In this document: positions 1-9,161 of the stretch, one piece after another
Layout of the letters: the number at the start of each line of letters is the position of its first letter
How positions within the stretch are numbered: position 1 is the stretch's first letter
DNA from: Verrucomicrobiota bacterium
GTDB lineage: Bacteria > Verrucomicrobiota > Verrucomicrobiia > Opitutales > Opitutaceae
NCBI GenBank assembly: GCA_003694825.1
Contig: RFJS01000058.1
Location: 1 to 11,993 of the forward strand
DNA length: 11,993 nucleotides
Reading direction: 5' to 3'
The notes under the pieces: model-generated
The model's database searches: none
What the model was told of the DNA's origin: nothing
Seen by the model: the letters and a program-made list of their open reading frames with translations, nothing else
Made by a program: the position numbers and the translations under genes

Positions 1-19
1 AACCAATAACCACCCCCCC
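1..19. repeat. Edge of a heptad array (TAACCAA orientation), cut by window start
   Basis: The window opens with AACCAATAACCA followed by seven C residues that run directly into the ATG of the sugar transferase. It is the complement of the TTGGTTA heptads seen downstream. The reverse complement of bases 1-18 matches bases 644-661 at 17 of 18 positions. The array probably continues upstream of the window. There is no Shine-Dalgarno-like sequence between it and the start codon. Confidence 0.75.
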
Positions 20-643
20 ATGAAGCGCCTGTTCGACATCATCGTGGCCCTGCTGGCGCTGGTGGCGCTGGCGCCGGTGCTGTTGGTGGTCGCGGTCGTG
101 GTGCGCGTGGGGCTGGGGTCGCCCGTGCTCTTCCGGCAGCGGCGGCCGGGATGGAAGGGACGGATCTTCGAGCTCGTGAAATTTCGCACCATGACCGGTG
201 CCCGCGGGCCGGATGGCGCTTTGCTGCCGGATGTGCAGCGGCTGACCCGGCTCGGGCGATGGCTGCGGGCGACGAGCCTCGATGAACTGCCGGAGCTGTG
301 GAACGTGCTCAAGGGCGACATGAGCCTGGTGGGGCCGCGGCCGCTGCTGGTGCAGTATCTCGATCGCTACACGCCCGAGCAGGCGCGGCGTCACGAAGTG
401 CGGCCGGGGCTCACCGGCTGGGCCCAGGTCCATGGGCGCAACGACCAGAGCTGGGAGGAGCGTTTCGCGCTGGATGTGTGGTATGTCGACAACCGGTCGT
501 TCTGGCTCGATCTGAAGATTCTGGCGATGACGGTATGGAAAGTGTTGGCACGCGAGGGCATCAGAGAGAAAGGCGCGGCGACGAAGGTCGAGTTTCGCGG
601 GTCTGCCGACGGTGGAGGGCGCGGGATAGCGCGGGGTGGGTGA
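20..643 (+). CDS. Polyprenyl-phosphate sugar-1-phosphate transferase (minimal PglC-type)
   Basis: Predicted membrane enzyme that moves a sugar-1-phosphate from a nucleotide sugar onto undecaprenyl phosphate, the first step of lipid-linked exopolysaccharide assembly on the cytoplasmic face. It has 207 residues and matches the short catalytic form of the bacterial sugar transferase family, without the extra multi-helix N-terminus of WcaJ-type enzymes. Residues 1-33 begin KRLFD and form one hydrophobic membrane segment with a central Pro19. FRQRRPG lies at 38-44 and KFRTM at 54-58. The catalytic Asp-Glu pair is SLDELP at 86-91 (Asp88, Glu89), followed by GPRP at 105-108 and RPGLTGWAQV at 128-137. 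The last 15 residues are Gly/Arg-rich and not typical of the family. The ATG directly follows a C-run repeat edge with no ribosome-binding site. The sugar substrate cannot be read from sequence. Confidence 0.93.
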   Translation: MKRLFDIIVALLALVALAPVLLVVAVVVRVGLGSPVLFRQRRPGWKGRIFELVKFRTMTGARGPDGALLPDVQRLTRLGRWLRATSLDELPELWNVLKGDMSLVGPRPLLVQYLDRYTPEQARRHEVRPGLTGWAQVHGRNDQSWEERFALDVWYVDNRSFWLDLKILAMTVWKVLAREGIREKGAATKVEFRGSADGGGRGIARGG

Positions 644-732
644 GGGGGGTGGTTGTTGGTTATTTGTTATTGGTTATTGGTTACTTGTTATTGGTTGATG
701 GTTATTGGTTATTTGGGGCTGGTTGTTGGGGA
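644..732. repeat. Heptad array A (TTGGTTA orientation)
   Basis: A tandem array starts immediately after the TGA of the sugar transferase. A G6 run and TGGTTG (644-655) lead into 7-bp units at 656, 663, 670, 677, 684, 691, 698 and 705 (TTGGTTA with variants such as TTTGTTA, CTTGTTA and ATGGTTA). More degenerate units in the same register run to about 732. No unit is longer or shorter than 7 bp. It is much more AT-rich than the flanking genes. It lies opposite in orientation to array B, and the two flank the ACP gene. Confidence 0.9.
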
Positions 733-751: not shown

Positions 752-1066
752 ATGCGTGAATTGGAAGAGAGGGTGCTCGAAATTGTTTGCCGGGTTGCCG
801 ATGTGACGCCCGGCCGGGGGGAAATCCTTTTTGGGCCCGGCGGGCGGCTGGACAGCCTCGGGCTGGTCAACCTTCTGGCTGATGTCGAAATGGCGGTGTC
901 GGAAGAATTTGGATGCGAGATCGTCCTCGCCTCGGAGCGCGCCATGAGCCGGCAGCACTCGCCGTTTCGAACCGCGGAGGCGCTGGCGGCGTTTGCCGCG
1001 GAACTGGTCGCGGAAGAACAGGGGAGGCACCAGGGAGACTCGGAGCCTGCCCCCGGCGACCCTTGA
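752..1066 (+). CDS. Acyl carrier protein (phosphopantetheine-binding)
   Basis: Small carrier protein that would hold an acyl group as a thioester on a 4'-phosphopantetheine arm in the cytoplasm. It has 104 residues. The attachment motif is LDSLGLVN at 33-40, with Ser35 the predicted modified serine. The preceding FGPGGRL and following LLADVEMAVSEEFG fit the loop and helix II of the ACP fold. It is longer than a fatty-acid-synthesis ACP (about 80 residues) because of an Ala/Glu-rich helix and a loose polar tail after residue 90. The start is supported by a good ribosome-binding site. The nearby AMP-forming ligase (2351-3730) is the likely loading enzyme and the SDR at 1401 a possible modifying enzyme. 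That link is inferred from neighbourhood only; ACPs and AMP-ligases are known companions in exosortase-associated polysaccharide loci. Confidence 0.85.
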   Translation: MRELEERVLEIVCRVADVTPGRGEILFGPGGRLDSLGLVNLLADVEMAVSEEFGCEIVLASERAMSRQHSPFRTAEALAAFAAELVAEEQGRHQGDSEPAPGDP

Positions 1067-1214: not shown

Positions 1215-1354
1215 CCAACCACCAATAACCAATAACGAACAACAAGTAACCAATCCCCAAGCCCCAATGCCCAATAACCAGTAACCAATAACCAGTAACC
1301 AATAACCAATAACCAATAACCAATAACCAGTAACCAATAACCAATAACCAATAA
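1215..1354. repeat. Heptad array B (CCAATAA orientation)
   Basis: Twenty consecutive 7-bp units with no insertion or deletion. Positions 1271-1354 are twelve units that are either CCAATAA or CCAGTAA. Positions 1215-1270 are eight units, two of them perfect (1222 and 1229) and the rest diverged (for example CGAACAA, CAAGTAA, CCAAGCC), all in the same register. It is the reverse complement of the TTGGTTA family. Its right edge (AACAACCACCCCC, 1353-1365) mirrors the left edge of array A (GGGGGTGGTTGTT). In this orientation the unit carries TAA, so all three + strand frames are closed every 21 bases. Confidence 0.93.
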
Positions 1355-1374
1355 CAACCACCCCCAAAAACAAG

Positions 1375-1388
1375 TGAAACAGGAAACA
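1375..1388. repeat. Left arm of 14-nt inverted repeat flanking the SDR gene
   Basis: TGAAACAGGAAACA here is the perfect reverse complement of bases 2233-2246. It contains two tandem GAAACAG heptads (1376-1389), so it belongs to the same 7-bp style of repeat. It sits between array B and the ATG of the SDR gene. Confidence 0.8.
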
Positions 1389-1400
1389 GACCGCAGGGTC

Positions 1401-2087
1401 ATGCTGATAACGGGCACCCGCAAGGGAATCGGACGCGAGCTGGCCCTGCGCTACCTCGAAGCGGGGTGGCGGGTGGCCGGTTGCAGCCGCGGGGCCGGCA
1501 CCATCGACAAGCCGGAGTATCGGCACTTCGAGGTGGATGTGGCGGACGAAAAGGCGGTCGTGAGCATGGTTCGCGCCGTCTGGCGCGAACACGGACGCAT
1601 CGATGCGCTGCTGAACAACGCCGGCATCGCTTCGATGAATCCGGCGCTGACGACACCGGTGGCATCGATGCGGCGCATGCTCGAAACCAACGTCGTCGGG
1701 ACATTTCTGCTGTGCCGCGAGGTCGGCAAGCTGATGGTGCGGCGCGGCGGCGGGCGCATCGTGAATTTCTCATCGGTGGCCGTCCCGCTGGCTCTGGAGG
1801 GCGAGGCGGCTTACGCCGCGAGCAAGAGCGCGGTGGAATCGCTGACGCGTGTGCTGGCGCGGGAGCTGGGCGGCAGCGGGGTGACGGTGAACGCCATTGG
1901 TCCGACGCCGGTGGATACCGACCTGGTGGCGGGGGTGCCGGCGGAGAAGCTCGAGGCGCTCGTCGCCCGGCAGGCGATCCGGCGGATGGGCACGGTCGAT
2001 GATGTGCAGGCGGTGGTCGATTTTTTTCTGGCGCCGAGTTCGGACTTCGTGACCGGGCAGGTCGTGTATCTCGGTGGTATCGATTGA
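1401..2087 (+). CDS. Short-chain dehydrogenase/reductase, FabG-like
   Basis: NAD(P)-dependent oxidoreductase of the classical SDR family, 228 residues from the chosen ATG. The dinucleotide-binding motif TGTRKGIG is at 4-11, NNAG at 72-75, a conserved Asn at 97, the catalytic Ser in NFSSVA at 122-127, and the YxxxK pair at Tyr138/Lys142. The C-terminus TGQVVYLGG is typical of 3-oxoacyl-ACP reductases. With an ACP upstream and an acyl ligase downstream, it may reduce a carrier-bound ketoacyl group, but a sugar or other substrate is equally possible. A GTG at 1374 would add nine residues, all encoded by the repeat, and no homology-type sequence; the ATG at 1401 begins the normal family N-terminus (MLITGT). 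AGGAAAC at 1381-1387 is a distant possible ribosome-binding site. The gene is bracketed by inverted 14-nt repeats. Confidence 0.9.
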   Translation: MLITGTRKGIGRELALRYLEAGWRVAGCSRGAGTIDKPEYRHFEVDVADEKAVVSMVRAVWREHGRIDALLNNAGIASMNPALTTPVASMRRMLETNVVGTFLLCREVGKLMVRRGGGRIVNFSSVAVPLALEGEAAYAASKSAVESLTRVLARELGGSGVTVNAIGPTPVDTDLVAGVPAEKLEALVARQAIRRMGTVDDVQAVVDFFLAPSSDFVTGQVVYLGGID

Positions 2088-2223: not shown

Positions 2224-2307
2224 CCTGTATCTTGTTTCCTGTTTCATCTTTTTTCTGCCCTCTGCCCTCTGCCCTCTGCCCTCTGCCCTCTGTCTTCTGT
2301 CTTCTGC
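2224..2307. repeat. Heptad array C (CTCTGCC family)
   Basis: Twelve 7-bp units in unbroken register: CCTGTAT, CTTGTTT, CCTGTTT, CATCTTT, TTTCTGC, four CCTCTGC, CCTCTGT, CTTCTGT and CTTCTGC. The + strand is almost all pyrimidine with a G once per unit. The sequence differs from the TTGGTTA family but has the same period and the same type of position, a gene junction. Its left part contains the inverted partner of 1375-1388. It ends about 40 bp before the start of the acyl ligase gene. Confidence 0.92.
2233..2246. repeat. Right arm of 14-nt inverted repeat flanking the SDR gene
   Basis: TGTTTCCTGTTTCA is the exact reverse complement of 1375-1388. It is embedded in the degenerate left part of array C. 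The two arms lie about 845 bp apart and enclose only the SDR gene and its immediate flanks. Confidence 0.8.
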
Positions 2308-2350: not shown

Positions 2351-3730
2351 ATGAAGACATGGTTGGCGCATTGGCGATCGCTGGGTGAGCGAGTGGCCTT
2401 CGTTGGAAGCGGCGGCGCTGCCGTGTCCTTCGCCGAGCTGGCGCAGCGGGCCGAGGCGGCCGTGGCGGAGGGTGTCCTGGCGGACGGCGAGGCGGCGCCC
2501 GGCGGCGCGGTCGTGGCCTTCCCGATCGAGTATTCGGCCCGGGCGGTCGTGGCGTTGCTCGCGATGGCGCGGGCGGGGGCGATCGTCGTGCCCTGCGAGC
2601 GGGCGCTGGACATGAATGGCGCGGTCGAACGGCTGGAGGCGGCGGGCGGCGGCCGCGTGCTGGCCTGGGCGGATCGCGACCGGCTGGCGACAGCGGGTAT
2701 CGTGACGGGGACGGGCGAGCGCTCGGCGGCCCTGGCAAGGCTGGCGGCCGCGCGCGAGGCGGGCCTGGTGTTGTTCACCGGCGCGTCCACGGGCGCGGCG
2801 AAAGGCGTGCTGCACCGGCTCGGCGCGTTCCTGGACGACTTCGCTTTGCGTCGCGGCGAAGGACGGCGGTTTCTTCCCCTGATGGCGCCCGACCACCTCG
2901 GCGGCCTCGATATGCTGCTGCGGACCATGGCCACGGGCACGACGGTCGTGGATCCCGGCGATCGCGACGTGCGAACCGTGTGCGGCGTGATCGAGCGGTG
3001 CCGCCCGGATATCATCGGGGGCACGCCGGCCCTGTTGAACCTTCTGGCGCTGGCGATCGACGGCGAGCCGGGCGGGGTGCGGGGCGCCGAAGCGGTGCGG
3101 GTCGTGGTGTGCGGCGCGGACCGCCTCACCGAGGGCGGGCGGACGCGGATTGCGAGGGCCTTTCCCAATGCCGTGATCGTGTCGCGGTTCGGCACGACCG
3201 AGACCGGGGCGGTGCGGATGGCCTACGACACGGCGGAGCGGTGTTTTCGCCCCGATGGCACGGAGCAGGCGCCGGTGGCTGTGCGCGACGGCGAGTTGTG
3301 GGTGCGCCTGCCGCGGAGCTTCGCGGGGTTTCTCGACGAGGCGGCGGGGCGGGGGCGCATCGTCGATGGCTGGTATCGCACGGGTGACCGGGCCGAGATG
3401 ACGGCGGATGGGTCGCTGAGAATTCTGGGGCGCTCCAGCCATGTCATCCACGTGGGCGGCGAGAAAGTCATGCCGGAGGTGGTGGAGGATGTGGTGAGCC
3501 AGCATCCCGACGTGGCATGGTGCCGGGCCTACGGCGAGGCGCATGTTCTCATGGGCGAGGTCGTGGCGCTCGATGTCGTGTGGCGGCGTCCCGGGGCTTC
3601 GGCGCTGGCGGTGAAGCGGGAGATCGACGGTTTCGCAAGAGAGAGGCTTGCCCGCCATGCCCGTCCGGTGCAGGTCCGTCTCGTCGAAACGGTGCAACTG
3701 ACGCCGGTGGGCAAGACGAGCAGACGATGA
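2351..3730 (+). CDS. AMP-forming acyl-CoA/acyl-ACP ligase (ANL superfamily)
   Basis: Adenylate-forming enzyme that would activate a carboxylic acid with ATP and pass it to CoA or, given the ACP two genes upstream, to a carrier protein. It has 459 residues, somewhat short for the family. The phosphate-binding loop is TGASTGAAKG at 143-152, with Ala where Pro is usual before the Lys. The FGTTETG motif is at 280-286 and WYRTGDRAEM at 341-350 with the ribose-binding Asp346. The hinge region LGRSSHVIHVGGEKV spans 359-373. The C-terminal catalytic Lys is Lys455 in TPVGKTSRR, only four residues from the end. Core motifs are intact, so activity is likely. The ATG has only a weak GGAAAA stretch upstream. 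The stop overlaps the next start as ATGA, implying translational coupling with the EpsI-like gene. Substrate is unknown. Confidence 0.9.
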   Translation: MKTWLAHWRSLGERVAFVGSGGAAVSFAELAQRAEAAVAEGVLADGEAAPGGAVVAFPIEYSARAVVALLAMARAGAIVVPCERALDMNGAVERLEAAGGGRVLAWADRDRLATAGIVTGTGERSAALARLAAAREAGLVLFTGASTGAAKGVLHRLGAFLDDFALRRGEGRRFLPLMAPDHLGGLDMLLRTMATGTTVVDPGDRDVRTVCGVIERCRPDIIGGTPALLNLLALAIDGEPGGVRGAEAVRVVVCGADRLTEGGRTRIARAFPNAVIVSRFGTTETGAVRMAYDTAERCFRPDGTEQAPVAVRDGELWVRLPRSFAGFLDEAAGRGRIVDGWYRTGDRAEMTADGSLRILGRSSHVIHVGGEKVMPEVVEDVVSQHPDVAWCRAYGEAHVLMGEVVALDVVWRRPGASALAVKREIDGFARERLARHARPVQVRLVETVQLTPVGKTSRR

Positions 3731-4437
3731 AGCGAACAGCCAGGTATCGGTGGACGTTGGGGGGCGCGCTGGGCGTGCTGGCCTTTGCCGTGGGTATCCA
3801 GTTTGTTGATCCGATTCGCGAGGAGGCCGCGCCGCGTCCGCCGCATCTGTCGGCCCTGTTTCCGGAAGTGCTGCCGGGGTGGCAGGTGCGGGATCTCCCG
3901 CTGGGCGCCACCGAGTATCAGAGCGAGGTCGTTTCGCGGGTGCTCAATTACGACGATGTTCTCTACCGGGAATACCGGCGGGGGGAGGTGCGCTTCGCGG
4001 TGTATGTGGCCTATTGGGGCGCGGGGCGGATGCCGGTGCGGCTGGTGGCCTCGCACACCCCGGACCGGTGCTGGACGGAAAACGGCTGGCAGTGCACGGC
4101 CATGCGTTTTGACGAGCGGATCCCGCTGGGGGACGGCATGAGCGCCCCGGGGGACTGGCGCCGTTTTCGCGACCCGAACGGCGATACGATGTATGTGATT
4201 TTCTGGCACCTTATCGATGGCGAGGTCCACGATTACGGCGAGCGCTTCAACGCGGTGCCGCATCCACTGGAGTGGTGGAAGGATGCGATCGATCAGGCGA
4301 TGCACGGAAGCCGCGAGCAGTATTTCGTGCGCCTGACGGCGAATGTGCCGCTCGAATCGCTATGGCATGAGCCGGGAATCCGGAGCGTGGTGGACCGGTT
4401 GCGGGAGTTGGGATTGGCGGCGAAGATGGAGCGGTGA
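3727..4437 (+). CDS. EpsI-family (DUF3485) exosortase-associated protein
   Basis: EpsI-domain proteins accompany exosortases and exopolysaccharide loci; their biochemical role is not firmly settled. This one has 236 residues. Residues 8-27 form a single N-terminal membrane anchor or uncleaved signal, leaving the rest outside the cytoplasmic membrane. The family signature H-x-P-x-x-C-(5)-W is visible as SHTPDRCWTENGWQ at 109-122 (His110, Pro112, Cys115, Trp121). The typical FPEVLPGWQV opening lies at 45-54 and an Arg/Tyr-rich strand, DVLYREYRRG, at 77-86. I chose the ATG at 3727 because it overlaps the ligase stop codon and begins the membrane segment; an open frame continues upstream but inside the ligase gene. 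No exosortase or PEP-CTERM-type protein is visible in the window, so the partner, if any, must lie elsewhere. Confidence 0.85.
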   Translation: MKRTARYRWTLGGALGVLAFAVGIQFVDPIREEAAPRPPHLSALFPEVLPGWQVRDLPLGATEYQSEVVSRVLNYDDVLYREYRRGEVRFAVYVAYWGAGRMPVRLVASHTPDRCWTENGWQCTAMRFDERIPLGDGMSAPGDWRRFRDPNGDTMYVIFWHLIDGEVHDYGERFNAVPHPLEWWKDAIDQAMHGSREQYFVRLTANVPLESLWHEPGIRSVVDRLRELGLAAKMER

Positions 4438-4454
4438 GGGGGGCGCTTTGGGTG

Positions 4455-4517
4455 GCGGTTGTTGGTTATTGGTTATTGGTTATTGGTTATTGGTTATTGG
4501 TTATTGGTTATTGGGGG
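4455..4517. repeat. Heptad array D (TTGGTTA orientation)
   Basis: Seven perfect tandem TTGGTTA units occupy 4462-4510, flanked in register by GCGGTTG (4455-4461) and TTGGGGG (4511-4517). It lies just downstream of the EpsI-like gene. The stop codon and following G-run of that gene (GGTGAGGGGGG, 4433-4443) are identical to those before array A (639-649). This is the most homogeneous array in the window, suggesting recent expansion or homogenisation. Confidence 0.95.
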
Positions 4518-4660
4518 AGGGGGAGAGCGGGGGCTGAGGTATTCAACGGTTTAAATGTCGCTTGCGCCTGGGCGCGGCAGACGTTCGATTGTCGTCGGAA
4601 AGGCCTCCCGGCCTCGGCTGTGCCCCGATACCGATCCTGATTCACCTGTTCTGATTGCCC
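4518..4660. other. Leader region upstream of the GT4 gene
   Basis: About 140 bp between array D and the glycosyltransferase start. It begins with a purine-rich stretch (GGAGGGGGAGAGCGGGGG) that continues the array edge, followed by ordinary mixed sequence. I see no convincing promoter, terminator or ribosome-binding site for the downstream gene. Confidence 0.4.
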
Positions 4661-5845
4661 ATGCGAGTGGCTGTTGTCACGACCCGCCGTTACCACCTGC
4701 TGGATCTGGCCCGAGAGCTGGATGCGCAGGGGCACCGGGTGCAGTTCATCGGGTGCGTGACGCGGGCCGAGGCTGAGCGGCACGGTCTGCCCGCCCATTG
4801 CCTGTGCAGTGTGCGGCGGCGGGTGTGGCCCCATCTGTGGCTGGAGCGCCGCGGGCCGGCCTGGCTGCGCTGGCATCTGGAGCCGCGCATTGCGGCGGCG
4901 GTGGATCGGGCGGCGGCGCGGCGGCTGGCGCGTTGTGATGTGTTGATCGGGCTTTCCGGCGTGTCGGTGCGCGTCGTGCACAAAGCGCAGTGGCGCTTTG
5001 GCGCGACCGTGTTTCTCGAGCGCGGCGGGCGACATATTCTCTCGCAGAAGGATTTGCTGGAGAAAATCCCGACCATGCGCCGGCCGGCGATCCCGCACGA
5101 GGAGATCAAGCGGGAGTTGTGGGGCTATAACCATGCCGATGTCGTGGTGGTGGCGTCGCGGCATGCCCGGGCGAGTTTTCTCGAGCGCGGCGTCCCGTCG
5201 GAGCGGCTCTTCCGCATTCCCTACGGGGTGGATCTGGAACGGTTTGCGCCGACCATGCGGCGCGCCTCGCCGCAGCAGACGGTGATGTTTGTCGGGCGCT
5301 GGTCGCTGACCAACGGATGCGACCTGCTCACTCTGGCGGCACGGGGGCAGCCCTGGCGGGTGATCCACGTCGGACCCCAGGGCGACGCGCCCTGGCCGGG
5401 CGGGCGGCAGTTCGAGCGCAGGGGGATCGTCGAGGATTGGGAGATGGCGAGCGTGTTTCGAGAGGCGGATATCCTCGTGCGGCCGTCGCGCGGAGAGGGG
5501 ATGGCCATGGTGCAGGCGCAGGCGTTGGCCTGCGGGGTGCCGGTGGTGTGTTCCGACAAGAGCGGCGGCGAGGATTTGCGGGACTTTCTCGATGATCCCT
5601 CGTGGGTGACGGTGGTTCCGGCAGGGAGTCTCGAGGCCCTGCGCGAGGGCATCGCGGTCGGTCTGGAGCGGGCGCGCTCACAGATCGGGCGCCGCTCGAT
5701 CCTCGAGCGGCAGCGGGAGAGGCTGTCGTGGCGGGCTTACGGAGAGCGTTATGCGGAGGAAATCGTGCGTCGCGTGCCGGAACCGGCAGAAAAGGTTTCA
5801 GACGTGGTGCCGGGAGTCGTCCCTGTTGAGGATCCAGCCCGTTGA
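4661..5845 (+). CDS. Family GT4 glycosyltransferase
   Basis: Retaining GT-B fold glycosyltransferase expected to add a sugar from a nucleotide donor to the lipid-linked glycan on the cytoplasmic side. It has 394 residues from ATG 4661. The N-terminal acceptor domain starts MRVAVVTTRR and has no membrane segment. The linker RIPYGVDLERFAP at 185-197 is typical of the family. The donor-binding domain starts VMFVGRWS (208-215) and contains RPSRGEGMAMVQAQALACGVPVV at 274-296 in outline. The first Glu of the usual E-x7-E motif is Glu279, but the second position is Gln287. A TTG at 4655 would add two residues; ATG gives the standard N-terminus. The stop TGA shares its last base with the next gene's ATG, so the two are probably coupled. 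Donor and acceptor cannot be assigned. Confidence 0.9.
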   Translation: MRVAVVTTRRYHLLDLARELDAQGHRVQFIGCVTRAEAERHGLPAHCLCSVRRRVWPHLWLERRGPAWLRWHLEPRIAAAVDRAAARRLARCDVLIGLSGVSVRVVHKAQWRFGATVFLERGGRHILSQKDLLEKIPTMRRPAIPHEEIKRELWGYNHADVVVVASRHARASFLERGVPSERLFRIPYGVDLERFAPTMRRASPQQTVMFVGRWSLTNGCDLLTLAARGQPWRVIHVGPQGDAPWPGGRQFERRGIVEDWEMASVFREADILVRPSRGEGMAMVQAQALACGVPVVCSDKSGGEDLRDFLDDPSWVTVVPAGSLEALREGIAVGLERARSQIGRRSILERQRERLSWRAYGERYAEEIVRRVPEPAEKVSDVVPGVVPVEDPAR

Positions 5846-6858
5846 TGTCCACCTCTGATCCTGACGCATCCGCAAGCGAAGCGAAGACCGCCCTGGTGAC
5901 CGGCGCTACGGGGTTTATCGGACGGCGCCTGGTGCCGTATTTGCGCGCGCGGGGATGGCGGGTGGTCGCGCTGGTGCGGTCTGTCGAGGCGGCGAAGAGG
6001 CAGTTGGAGGCGGACGGATGGGTGGAGTGCGATCTGTGCGGGCCGGAGCCGGTCGGGATCCCGCGCGGAGTGGACACGGTGTTTCATCTCGCGGGAAAGG
6101 CGCACGCGATTCTCGAGGTCGGCGAGGAGGAGGCGGCGTATCGCCGGTTGAACACCGAGGCGACGGCCCGCCTGCTCGAGGCGGCGGGGCGGGCCGGGGT
6201 GCGGGCGTTCGTGTATTTCAGTTCGGTCAAGGCGGTCGCGGATCCGAGGGGATTGGCGGGACCGGCGGACGAATCGTGGACGCGGGAGCCGGGGACGGCC
6301 TATGGGCGGTCCAAGCTCGAGGCCGAGCGGATCGTCCTGGCAGATGCCGGCGTGCCGCACCGGGTCGTGCTGCGGCCGACACTCGTCTACGGACCGAATC
6401 CCAAGGGCAATCTGCGCAAGATGGCCGATGCCGTGCGGCGGGGGCGGTTTCCGCCGCTGCCGGAAACGGGCAACCGGCGGTCCGCCGTCCATGTCGACGA
6501 CGTGTGCCGGGCGGCGTTGGCCTGCGCCGTGTGTGAGGCGGCGAATGGGCGAGTCTACATCGTCGCCGATGATCGGCCGTTTTCGACCCGGATGCTCTTC
6601 GAGTGGATGAGCGAGGCGGTCGGGCGGCCCGTGCCGGGATGGACGCTGCCGCTGTGGGTGCTCCGGCTGCTCGGGCGCGCGGGCGATGTCATCGGCCGCG
6701 TGCGGGGACGCCGGTTCGTCTTTGACTCTCAGGCCCTGGATCGGCTCACGGAGAGTGCCTGGTATTCGGCAGAACGCCTGAAGCGCGATGTGGGCTGGCA
6801 ACCGAGCCGAACGCTGCGCGACAGCCTCAGGGATATGGTGAGGGAAGAGGCGGGTTGA
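5845..6858 (+). CDS. NAD-dependent sugar-nucleotide epimerase/dehydratase (extended SDR)
   Basis: Extended SDR enzyme acting on a nucleotide sugar or a related glycan precursor. It has 337 residues. The Rossmann motif GATGFIG is at 20-26, HLAGKAH at 81-87, the catalytic Ser in FSSVKA at 125-130, and YGRSK at 153-157 supplies Tyr153 and Lys157. RPTLVYGPNPKGN (177-189) and SAVHVDDVCRA (213-223) are typical of the WbpV-like UDP-GlcNAc 4-epimerase/dehydratase group in O-antigen loci. The extra 14 residues before the Rossmann fold (MSTSDPDASASEAK) look disordered. The ATG overlaps the GT4 stop codon by one base and lies directly after an in-frame TTG, which I reject as start. It probably supplies a sugar for this locus and is the last gene of the + strand run. 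The exact reaction is not determinable. Confidence 0.87.
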   Translation: MSTSDPDASASEAKTALVTGATGFIGRRLVPYLRARGWRVVALVRSVEAAKRQLEADGWVECDLCGPEPVGIPRGVDTVFHLAGKAHAILEVGEEEAAYRRLNTEATARLLEAAGRAGVRAFVYFSSVKAVADPRGLAGPADESWTREPGTAYGRSKLEAERIVLADAGVPHRVVLRPTLVYGPNPKGNLRKMADAVRRGRFPPLPETGNRRSAVHVDDVCRAALACAVCEAANGRVYIVADDRPFSTRMLFEWMSEAVGRPVPGWTLPLWVLRLLGRAGDVIGRVRGRRFVFDSQALDRLTESAWYSAERLKRDVGWQPSRTLRDSLRDMVREEAG

Positions 6859-7096: not shown

Positions 7097-7219
7097 ATGA
7101 TTCCTGAACACATCGAGATTTCCAGCGCCGTGACTTATGGCATGGCGCTCGTGGTCATCGTGGCTGGGTTTCTTGTCATGCGAACGCTGATCCAGCGTTT
7201 CCGCAGGCGGACGCGCTGA
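7097..7219 (+). CDS. Single-pass membrane microprotein, 40 residues
   Basis: I do not recognise this protein. It starts MIPEHIEISSAVTYG, has one hydrophobic helix at about residues 13-33 (AVTYGMALVVIVAGFLVMRT in outline) and ends in a strongly basic tail, QRFRRRTR. By the positive-inside rule the C-terminus would be cytoplasmic. The evidence that it is real is the near-ideal GGAGGAG ribosome-binding site, the balanced membrane-protein composition and the strong terminator 62 bases after the stop codon, which together make a compact monocistronic unit. It is too short for most gene finders. Subunit-like small membrane proteins of respiratory complexes have a similar shape, but no motif supports that here. 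Confidence 0.65.
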   Translation: MIPEHIEISSAVTYGMALVVIVAGFLVMRTLIQRFRRRTR

Positions 7220-7280: not shown

Positions 7281-7322
7281 AAAAAACGAGGACTGCCGGT
7301 CAGGGCAGTCCTCGTTTTTTTT
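7281..7322 (+). terminator. Strong intrinsic terminator, likely bidirectional
   Basis: A perfect 12-bp stem (ACGAGGACTGCC at 7286-7297 with GGCAGTCCTCGT at 7304-7315) encloses a 6-base loop and is followed by T7. A6 precedes the stem on the left, so A-T pairs extend it and the structure can end transcription from either strand. It lies 62 bases after the microprotein stop codon. Confidence 0.93.

Positions 7323-9084: not shown

Positions 9085-9161
<77 letters not shown>

Follow-up and report, generated by a model that had tools for sequence, protein, structure and literature searches.

The window analyzed here, 11,993 nucleotides from a genome of the family Opitutaceae (Verrucomicrobiota), opens with a sugar transferase (ST) gene framed by two inverted repeats, one touching its start codon and the other its stop codon. 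The first-pass annotation offered two readings of this frame, a cassette moved by recombination between the repeat ends, or repeats that expand up to the codon at which selection stops them, and the question raised by the locus is which of these, if either, accounts for so exact a bracket. Heptad repeats have long been known, and we know of no settled explanation either for the length of seven bases or for the adjacency to genes. We found that the repeat neighbors of ST are real, non-random and of a known kind, while the general polarity and turnover of such repeats are the more interesting part of the answer.

The bracketed gene and the arrays of its locus

The window is a complete contig (C464) of a 3.2-Mb genome assembled in 601 contigs and 80.6% complete. 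A Pfam scan of ten window ORFs identified its first 7 kb as a polysaccharide-type, exopolysaccharide-like locus (Table 1). ST looks like an ordinary initiating sugar transferase of such a locus, and its start codon is backed by homologues, whose alignments start at query residue 1 or 2 in 118 of the 119 listed and stop at residues 194–206 of 207. The short-chain dehydrogenase (SDR) more likely starts at the ATG than at the GTG, and the protein with a DUF3485 domain, which we take to be tied to exosortase systems, is presumably an EpsI. The AMP-binding ligase, used as a query against the genome contig collection, gave no match. Further right, a 40-aa ORF without a Pfam match (7097–7219) is followed by what by eye is a terminator-like inverted repeat with a T run (7285–7322), and a tRNA-Pro (CGG) lies at 9085–9161. 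Mis-binning of the contig was rejected: GC content is 0.660 in the window and 0.657 in the genome sample, and pyrE has one match in this genome and is consistent with the family.

Table 1. Genes and heptad arrays in the first 7 kb of the window (TRF, tandem-repeat call).
Feature	Position	Strand	Remarks
Cut end of (GGTTATT)n array, G7-TGG edge	1..19	-	5′ end of G strand touches ATG at 20
Sugar transferase (ST), 207 aa	20..643	+	PF02397, 225 bits; several homologues named EpsL in their source records
G6-TGG edge and (GGTTATT)n array	644..713	+	Directly after ST TGA; TRF 650-713
104-aa ORF	752..1066	+	No Pfam match; acyl-carrier-like from position and look only
(GGTTATT)n array, ~19 copies, G5-TGG edge facing start of next gene	1215..1366	-	TRF 1221-1355
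Short-chain dehydrogenase (SDR)	1374..2087	+	PF13561/PF00106; start GTG 1374 or ATG 1401
TCTGCCC heptads (G strand, GGGCAGA), 44 nt before ligase start	2254..2306	-	TRF 2254-2307
AMP-binding ligase	2351..3730	+	PF00501, PF13193
EpsI-like protein	3727..4437	+	DUF3485, PF11984
G6 run right after EpsI-like TGA, 13 more bases, (GGTTATT)n array 4457-4514	4438..4514	+	TRF 4457-4514
Group-4/1 glycosyltransferase	4661..5845	+	Pfam scan, ORF 4655-5845
NAD-dependent epimerase/dehydratase	5845..6858	+	Pfam scan, ORF 5842-6858

The inverted arms are as first described: bases 1–18 read on the minus strand (GGGGGGTGGTTATTGGTT) and bases 644–661 (GGGGGGTGGTTGTTGGTT) are identical at 17 of 18 positions, with the C run (13–19) against the ATG (20–22) and the G run beginning at 644 directly behind the TGA (641–643). 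The bracketing is therefore exact in its contacts with both codons, but the arms have counterparts elsewhere in the locus, each being the gene-facing edge of a heptad array. Five arrays, four of GGTTATT and one of TCTGCCC, occupy gene junctions in the first 4.5 kb, with period 7 confirmed by TRF at the four complete ones. All five lie outside the ten scanned ORFs, the cut array having no visible left neighbor. The contig starts at base 1 of the window, which makes the left arm the truncated remainder of a longer array. Sequences resembling the arms (up to 3 mismatches) occurred at 6 places in the window against 0.01 expected from 200 dinucleotide shuffles, namely at the edges at 1, 644 and 1346, at 4450 beside the fourth edge, and twice within arrays. 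A control with the reversed pattern gave similar counts and was uninformative, the reversal of GGTTATT being a rotation of the same heptad. A G run of 5–7 bases, not part of the heptad, stands at or near the gene-facing edge of all four GGTTATT arrays; among the codon-proximal array edges listed from other genomes, a run of at least 5 Gs was found at 0 of 57.

The arrays share an orientation. A polarity rule of this kind, in which the 5′ end of the G-rich strand faces the nearer gene, is described for GGGNATC-type heptads of Xanthomonas and Nostoc in the part of Rehm et al. drawn on here (Rehm et al., 2015; PMC4692102). In the window, the 5′ end of the G-rich strand faced the nearer visible gene end in 5/5 arrays, at distances of 1 nt (ST start), 6 nt (ST stop), 19 nt (EpsI-like stop), 18 or 45 nt (SDR, from the GTG or from the ATG) and 44 nt (ligase start), and the gene at that end was the nearer one in all four arrays with both neighbors visible. 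A gene with an array on each side is in this way made to look bracketed by inverted repeats at both codons; since the polarity rule and one array per side suffice, the inverted bracket around ST follows from them.

It was also claimed that the bracket leaves ST without a ribosome-binding site, which is true yet normal for this genome. Shine-Dalgarno-like tetramers preceded 10 of 108 genes, compared with 12 of 108 for a control interval farther upstream, and the complete Opitutaceae genome G013 gave 47/364 against 43/364. Given that such sites are at background level in both genomes, a gene probably loses little by having an array against its ATG. A similar situation is reported for TAACTGA repeats, which, in the excerpted text of MacGregor (2015; PMC4679880), overlap the expected ribosome-binding site of genes that mostly have no obvious one.

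Polarity and turnover across genomes

A genome-contig scan for (GGTTATT)4 returned at least 120 stretches, of which 80 named loci were used; hosts among the matches listed were mainly cyanobacteria and Bacteroidota, with single Planctomycetes, Verrucomicrobiales, Acidobacteria and other records. These 80 loci of at least 120 contained 95 GGTTATT arrays, and we kept the 74 intergenic ones, leaving out 14 at edges and 7 within genes. The gene on the 5′ side of the G strand was nearer in 59 of the 74, the median distance being 8 nt on that side and 104.5 nt on the 3′ side. Contacts within 10 nt were frequent on the 5′ side (23/31 stops, 20/43 starts) and rare on the 3′ side (4/52 stops, 0/22 starts), again in the 80 of at least 120 loci. 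Gene ends came mostly from our own ORF caller, and CCAATAA has TAA in all frames whereas GGTTATT has no stop, which could bias calls on the start side; we therefore ran a null in which arrays were inserted randomly in gaps and genes re-called with the same caller. This null did not reproduce the close contacts (within 10 nt, 5′ stop 30/389, 5′ start 41/436, 3′ stop 23/427, 3′ start 20/398), and its 5′-nearer fraction was 0.54 against 0.80 observed. Counted by genome over the listed loci, the majority of arrays was 5′-nearer in 32 of 40, opposite in 7 and tied in 1 (sign test, 3.5e-5).

The close contact between the 5′ end of the G strand and ORF ends holds for GGTTATT and for other units. Among other heptads in the same 80 of at least 120 loci, the 5′-side gene was nearer in 76/99 arrays, with contacts within 10 nt at 29/55 stops and 10/44 starts on the 5′ side and 5/52 stops and 3/47 starts on the 3′ side. 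These loci, chosen by a heptad, contained 235 period-7 arrays and only 2 to 9 for each other period from 4 to 11. A gradient of purity, such as growth from one end could produce, was absent from the arrays: among 94 cores, more degenerate units were attached 5′ in 45 and 3′ in 34, and the rest were equal.

We then compared seven gene boundaries in up to twelve cyanobacterial genomes, dropping duplicates, short stretches and alignments below 120 bases. An array lay within 60 nt at 43 of 64 orthologous boundaries, or 36 of 57 without the 7 reference rows, which had been picked for having one. The expected polarity was found in 32 of the 43 (26/36 without reference rows) and the opposite in 11 (7 at boundary D, 3 at B, 1 at E), some of which, in our reading, are two facing arrays merged by the scan. 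Boundary C, whose anchor is 86–100% identical to the reference, had arrays in 8/10 genomes, all with the expected polarity and with 7 distinct dominant units among the 8. The place of an array is thus often kept while its heptad unit changes, and the polarity extends to units of no usual quadruplex potential such as GTTGACT and AGTCATT.

In cyanobacteria and other bacteria, heptad arrays likewise tend to run up to start and stop codons, and they can overlap or replace the outermost codons of genes. At a gene that we presume to be minC-like from the MinD-like sequence that follows it, five of the 8 readable orthologues had the stop codon within the array, two had an array beginning 2 or 8 nt behind the stop, and one had none; four of the 12 rows (L263–L266) were left out because they were in the wrong frame. 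At another gene, by motif presumably an ABC-type ATP-binding protein, four close array-free orthologues (4/4) begin MS[QK][SC]ILEF, and in all five array-bearing ones the ATG is inside or touching the array: in L269 and L270 it lies in the array, in L274 it touches it, and in L276 and L277 the ATG comes from the array, which extends to the ILEF codons. A remote orthologue (L278, 67%) has no array and a different start. These boundaries agree with the earlier idea that repeats extend as far as the codon at which selection halts them.

The gaps themselves vary in other ways. By eye, a unique spacer between the minC-like and minD-like genes is common to L258, L260 and L262 and absent in L257 and L259, where arrays fill most of the gap. 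Array-free gaps in L286, L308, L271 and L273 contain MITE-like inverted repeats (by eye; e.g., GTAGTGAGGACTTTAGTCC), as if such gaps accepted either kind of repeat, heptad or MITE-like. A 20-base palindrome-like sequence, CCCTTCGACTNCGCTCAGGG, was present in 8/353 loci, and in L263, L276 and L300 it stands between heptad stretches.

Within the Opitutaceae, support for the polarity is weaker than across the listed loci. In G006, a genome of the same family, the 5′-side gene was nearer in only 15 of 26 arrays, with contacts within 20 nt at 8/13 stops on the 5′ side against 2/17 on the 3′ side and at 2/13 starts against 1/9. In a loose set of 48 family arrays, the rule was weak, with 4 sense and 7 antisense arrays within 50 nt of starts and 6 sense and 2 antisense within 50 nt of stops.

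The distribution of arrays also differs among these genomes. In the window's own genome, 24 of 25 genome-wide matches to GGTTATTGGTTATTGGTT-like GGTTATT 18-mers fell in the window contig. Of 44 other contigs sampled, 15 consist of N throughout; the remaining 29, with 197,163 readable bases (~6% of the genome), gave no heptad array. G013 had 17 heptad arrays in a contiguous 400 kb, all within 60 kb around the ST locus, and none in a further 400 kb taken as 20 scattered pieces. Period-8 arrays were no less frequent than heptads in that contiguous 400 kb (22 versus 17), and all 22 fell within these 60 kb; the stretch is thus enriched in short tandem repeats generally, and the process there is not limited to seven bases. 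Several of the 20 ORFs scanned in it are PEP-CTERM, polysaccharide, glycosyltransferase, epimerase or IS21 genes; the array-rich region (L086–L088, 5.32–5.38 Mb) is of polysaccharide/PEP-CTERM type and includes an IS21-type transposase and IstB pair. In G006, heptads were scattered over 13 of 20 blocks (34 arrays in 388 kb), and period 6 was as frequent as period 7 (33 versus 34). Concentration at a polysaccharide locus was therefore seen in two family genomes and not in all. Three GGTTATT units (up to 2 mismatches) were found in 6 of 57 genomes searched, that of the window included.

How the arrays may have come to lie at the codons

Given that the polarity recurs in several phyla and with several units, and that place is kept as the unit changes, a mutational mechanism appears more fitting than a fixed signal. 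The reading that we favor, and consider reasonably probable, is that the inverted ends around ST are the gene-side edges of intergenic heptad arrays that tend to run to codons and keep their place while units turn over, through slippage and loss of DNA on the 5′ side. Slippage would grow and homogenize the arrays, sequence on the 5′ side of the G strand would be lost until only what the gene needs remains, and selection would halt the loss at the codons. By itself, slippage adds DNA without narrowing the gap to a codon, so this putative loss step is needed. Such a mechanism gives a clear prediction, loss of DNA on one side only. The arrays are probably tolerated rather than needed. A wider version, which we offer tentatively, is a strand-polar process largely blind to the unit, in which mostly seven-base arrays would consume 5′-side intergenic DNA up to or into codons, with place and polarity inherited and the Opitutaceae locus as a local outbreak.

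As to what might drive the loss, a ratchet of stalled replication is possible, if somewhat doubtful. Here the G-rich template would fold into a two-tier quadruplex or another structure, and the nascent strand would either slip back, adding heptads, or skip ahead, deleting sequence on the 5′ side, with the deletions accumulating until the codon is reached. This predicts the polarity seen in the GGTTATT loci and is consistent, by eye, with the spacer kept between the two arrays of L258, L260 and L262 and with the near meeting of the arrays in L257. It also has a precedent in geometry: G-quadruplex deletions in worms without DOG-1 have a 3′ junction adjoining the motif and a 5′ junction ~50–300 bp away, according to the part of the source used here (PMC4654259). 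The analogy comes from worms and not from bacteria, and the polarity of GTTGACT and AGTCATT arrays, which have no usual quadruplex potential, speaks against it. In the worm model, the motif itself is reportedly deleted too, which also counts against the ratchet.

We consider it unlikely that the arrays are kept by selection for a function, as putative binding sites or structures on gene-end transcripts that would act in termination, stability or control of translation. That place and polarity are often kept despite changes of unit would agree with a function, and translational control is proposed for TAACTGA repeats beside start codons of Beggiatoaceae in the excerpt of MacGregor (2015; PMC4679880). 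On the other hand, the unit is not conserved, as the seven dominant units in eight genomes at boundary C demonstrate, no array lay within 60 nt at 21 of the 64 orthologous boundaries, and Rehm et al. could identify no role in gene regulation, as far as the consulted part of their paper goes (PMC4692102).

It seems improbable that a mobile element, or copying from arrays elsewhere, placed ready-made arrays at gene ends. The G run at or near the gene-facing edge of all four window GGTTATT arrays, 5–7 bases long and matched by none of the 57 edges listed elsewhere, counts in favor of this reading. Against it, the ten scanned window ORFs include no transposase, and single-base differences among units, seen by eye both within an array and from one array to another of the same site, resemble drift.

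Exchange, insertion or inversion of ST by recombination between the inverted arms is very unlikely, and ST is probably not a movable cassette. The exact bracketing speaks for this reading, as does gene order, which is ST, 104-aa ORF, SDR, ligase and EpsI in the window's genome; in G013 it is an ORF (L057, 10525–11709), ST and EpsI, and the upstream neighbors of ST differ. Given these differences, the locus is modular. The ten window ORFs scanned, all to the right of the cut left arm, include neither a recombinase nor a transposase. The comparison among relatives proposed by the first-pass annotation, in which a gene swapped, missing or inverted between unchanged ends would favor a cassette, gave that idea no support. 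We read eight loci of 15–20 kb in other genomes, the best 8 of many ST-domain matches, with ST homologues 51–71% identical: the gene was present in 8/8, the ends were changed or absent, and no swapped, missing or inverted gene stood between unchanged ends. Five of the eight had no heptad array in the 15–20 kb, and two had a remote one (~180 nt away in L060, ~950 nt in L059). The annotation had also named relatives with the same gene in the same place and no repeats as evidence against a cassette; the repeat-free homologue is there in these five loci, on a comparison of gene presence alone. In G013, an array of another unit, GAAGCAA-type on the coding strand, contains the ST orthologue's stop codon; a further array, ~300 nt from the ST start, begins 9 nt behind the stop codon of the ORF that precedes ST. 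In G003, the ST-domain gene is longer and different (478 aa), and on its coding strand a GAGAGTT-type array begins no more than 3 nt past the TGA. The ends thus change or vanish while the gene is present, the window has arrays at several junctions and not only around ST, and the same array geometry is found beside the minC-like and other cyanobacterial genes whose orthologues stay put. The repeats can themselves give rise to the start codons, stop codons and gene brackets found beside them, so bracketing is not evidence of a cassette.

An assembly artefact is extremely improbable: the contig does end in an array, but three GGTTATT arrays are complete within it, as is the TCTGCCC array, its GC content and its single, family-consistent pyrE match fit the genome, and the complete genome G013 has arrays of the same kind.

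Comparison with known heptad repeats

Our literature search, with subscription papers mostly outside its scope, found no paper on heptad arrays in Verrucomicrobiota or Opitutaceae. The short tandemly repeated repetitive (STRR) heptads of filamentous cyanobacteria are known mostly as fingerprint markers. They resemble the window arrays as mixed heptads in intergenic gaps, and (GGTTATT)4 itself is present in many cyanobacteria among the matches listed. The hosts differ, being filamentous cyanobacteria for STRR and a member of the Verrucomicrobiota for the window.

TAACTGA heptads are described from marine Beggiatoaceae, cyanobacteria and Bacteroidetes in the sections of MacGregor considered here (MacGregor, 2015; PMC4679880). 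According to the same sections, that system differs from the window in having one unit, with 2–6 copies per set in the Guaymas genome, and its orientations in Microcystis are mixed, in a small sample. As TAACTGA has one G and one C, a G-strand rule cannot apply to it.

The closest resemblance is to the GGGNATC, or GGGGA(C/T)T, repeats, here again as characterized in the part of Rehm et al. (2015; PMC4692102) drawn on. That text reports variation in length and sequence between two species, which hints at turnover of units in a kept place; in the same part, we found no statement of such turnover as a rule. Like the window arrays, these repeats are tandem units of seven bases, mostly intergenic, with the G strand coding after stop codons and non-coding before start codons and with the 5′-side gene nearer, and the window arrays have an ORF within 50 nt of the 5′ end of the G strand, as a Rehm-type definition states. 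Unlike them, the window arrays have the unit GGTTATT (and TCTGCCC). In the sampled part of the genome, arrays were found in one locus only; the repeats of Rehm et al. are genome-wide. With two Gs per unit, GGTTATT is predicted to form a two-tier quadruplex at best. Given this unit, which is not GGGNATC, the arrays around ST are placed like Rehm-type repeats but are not that repeat.
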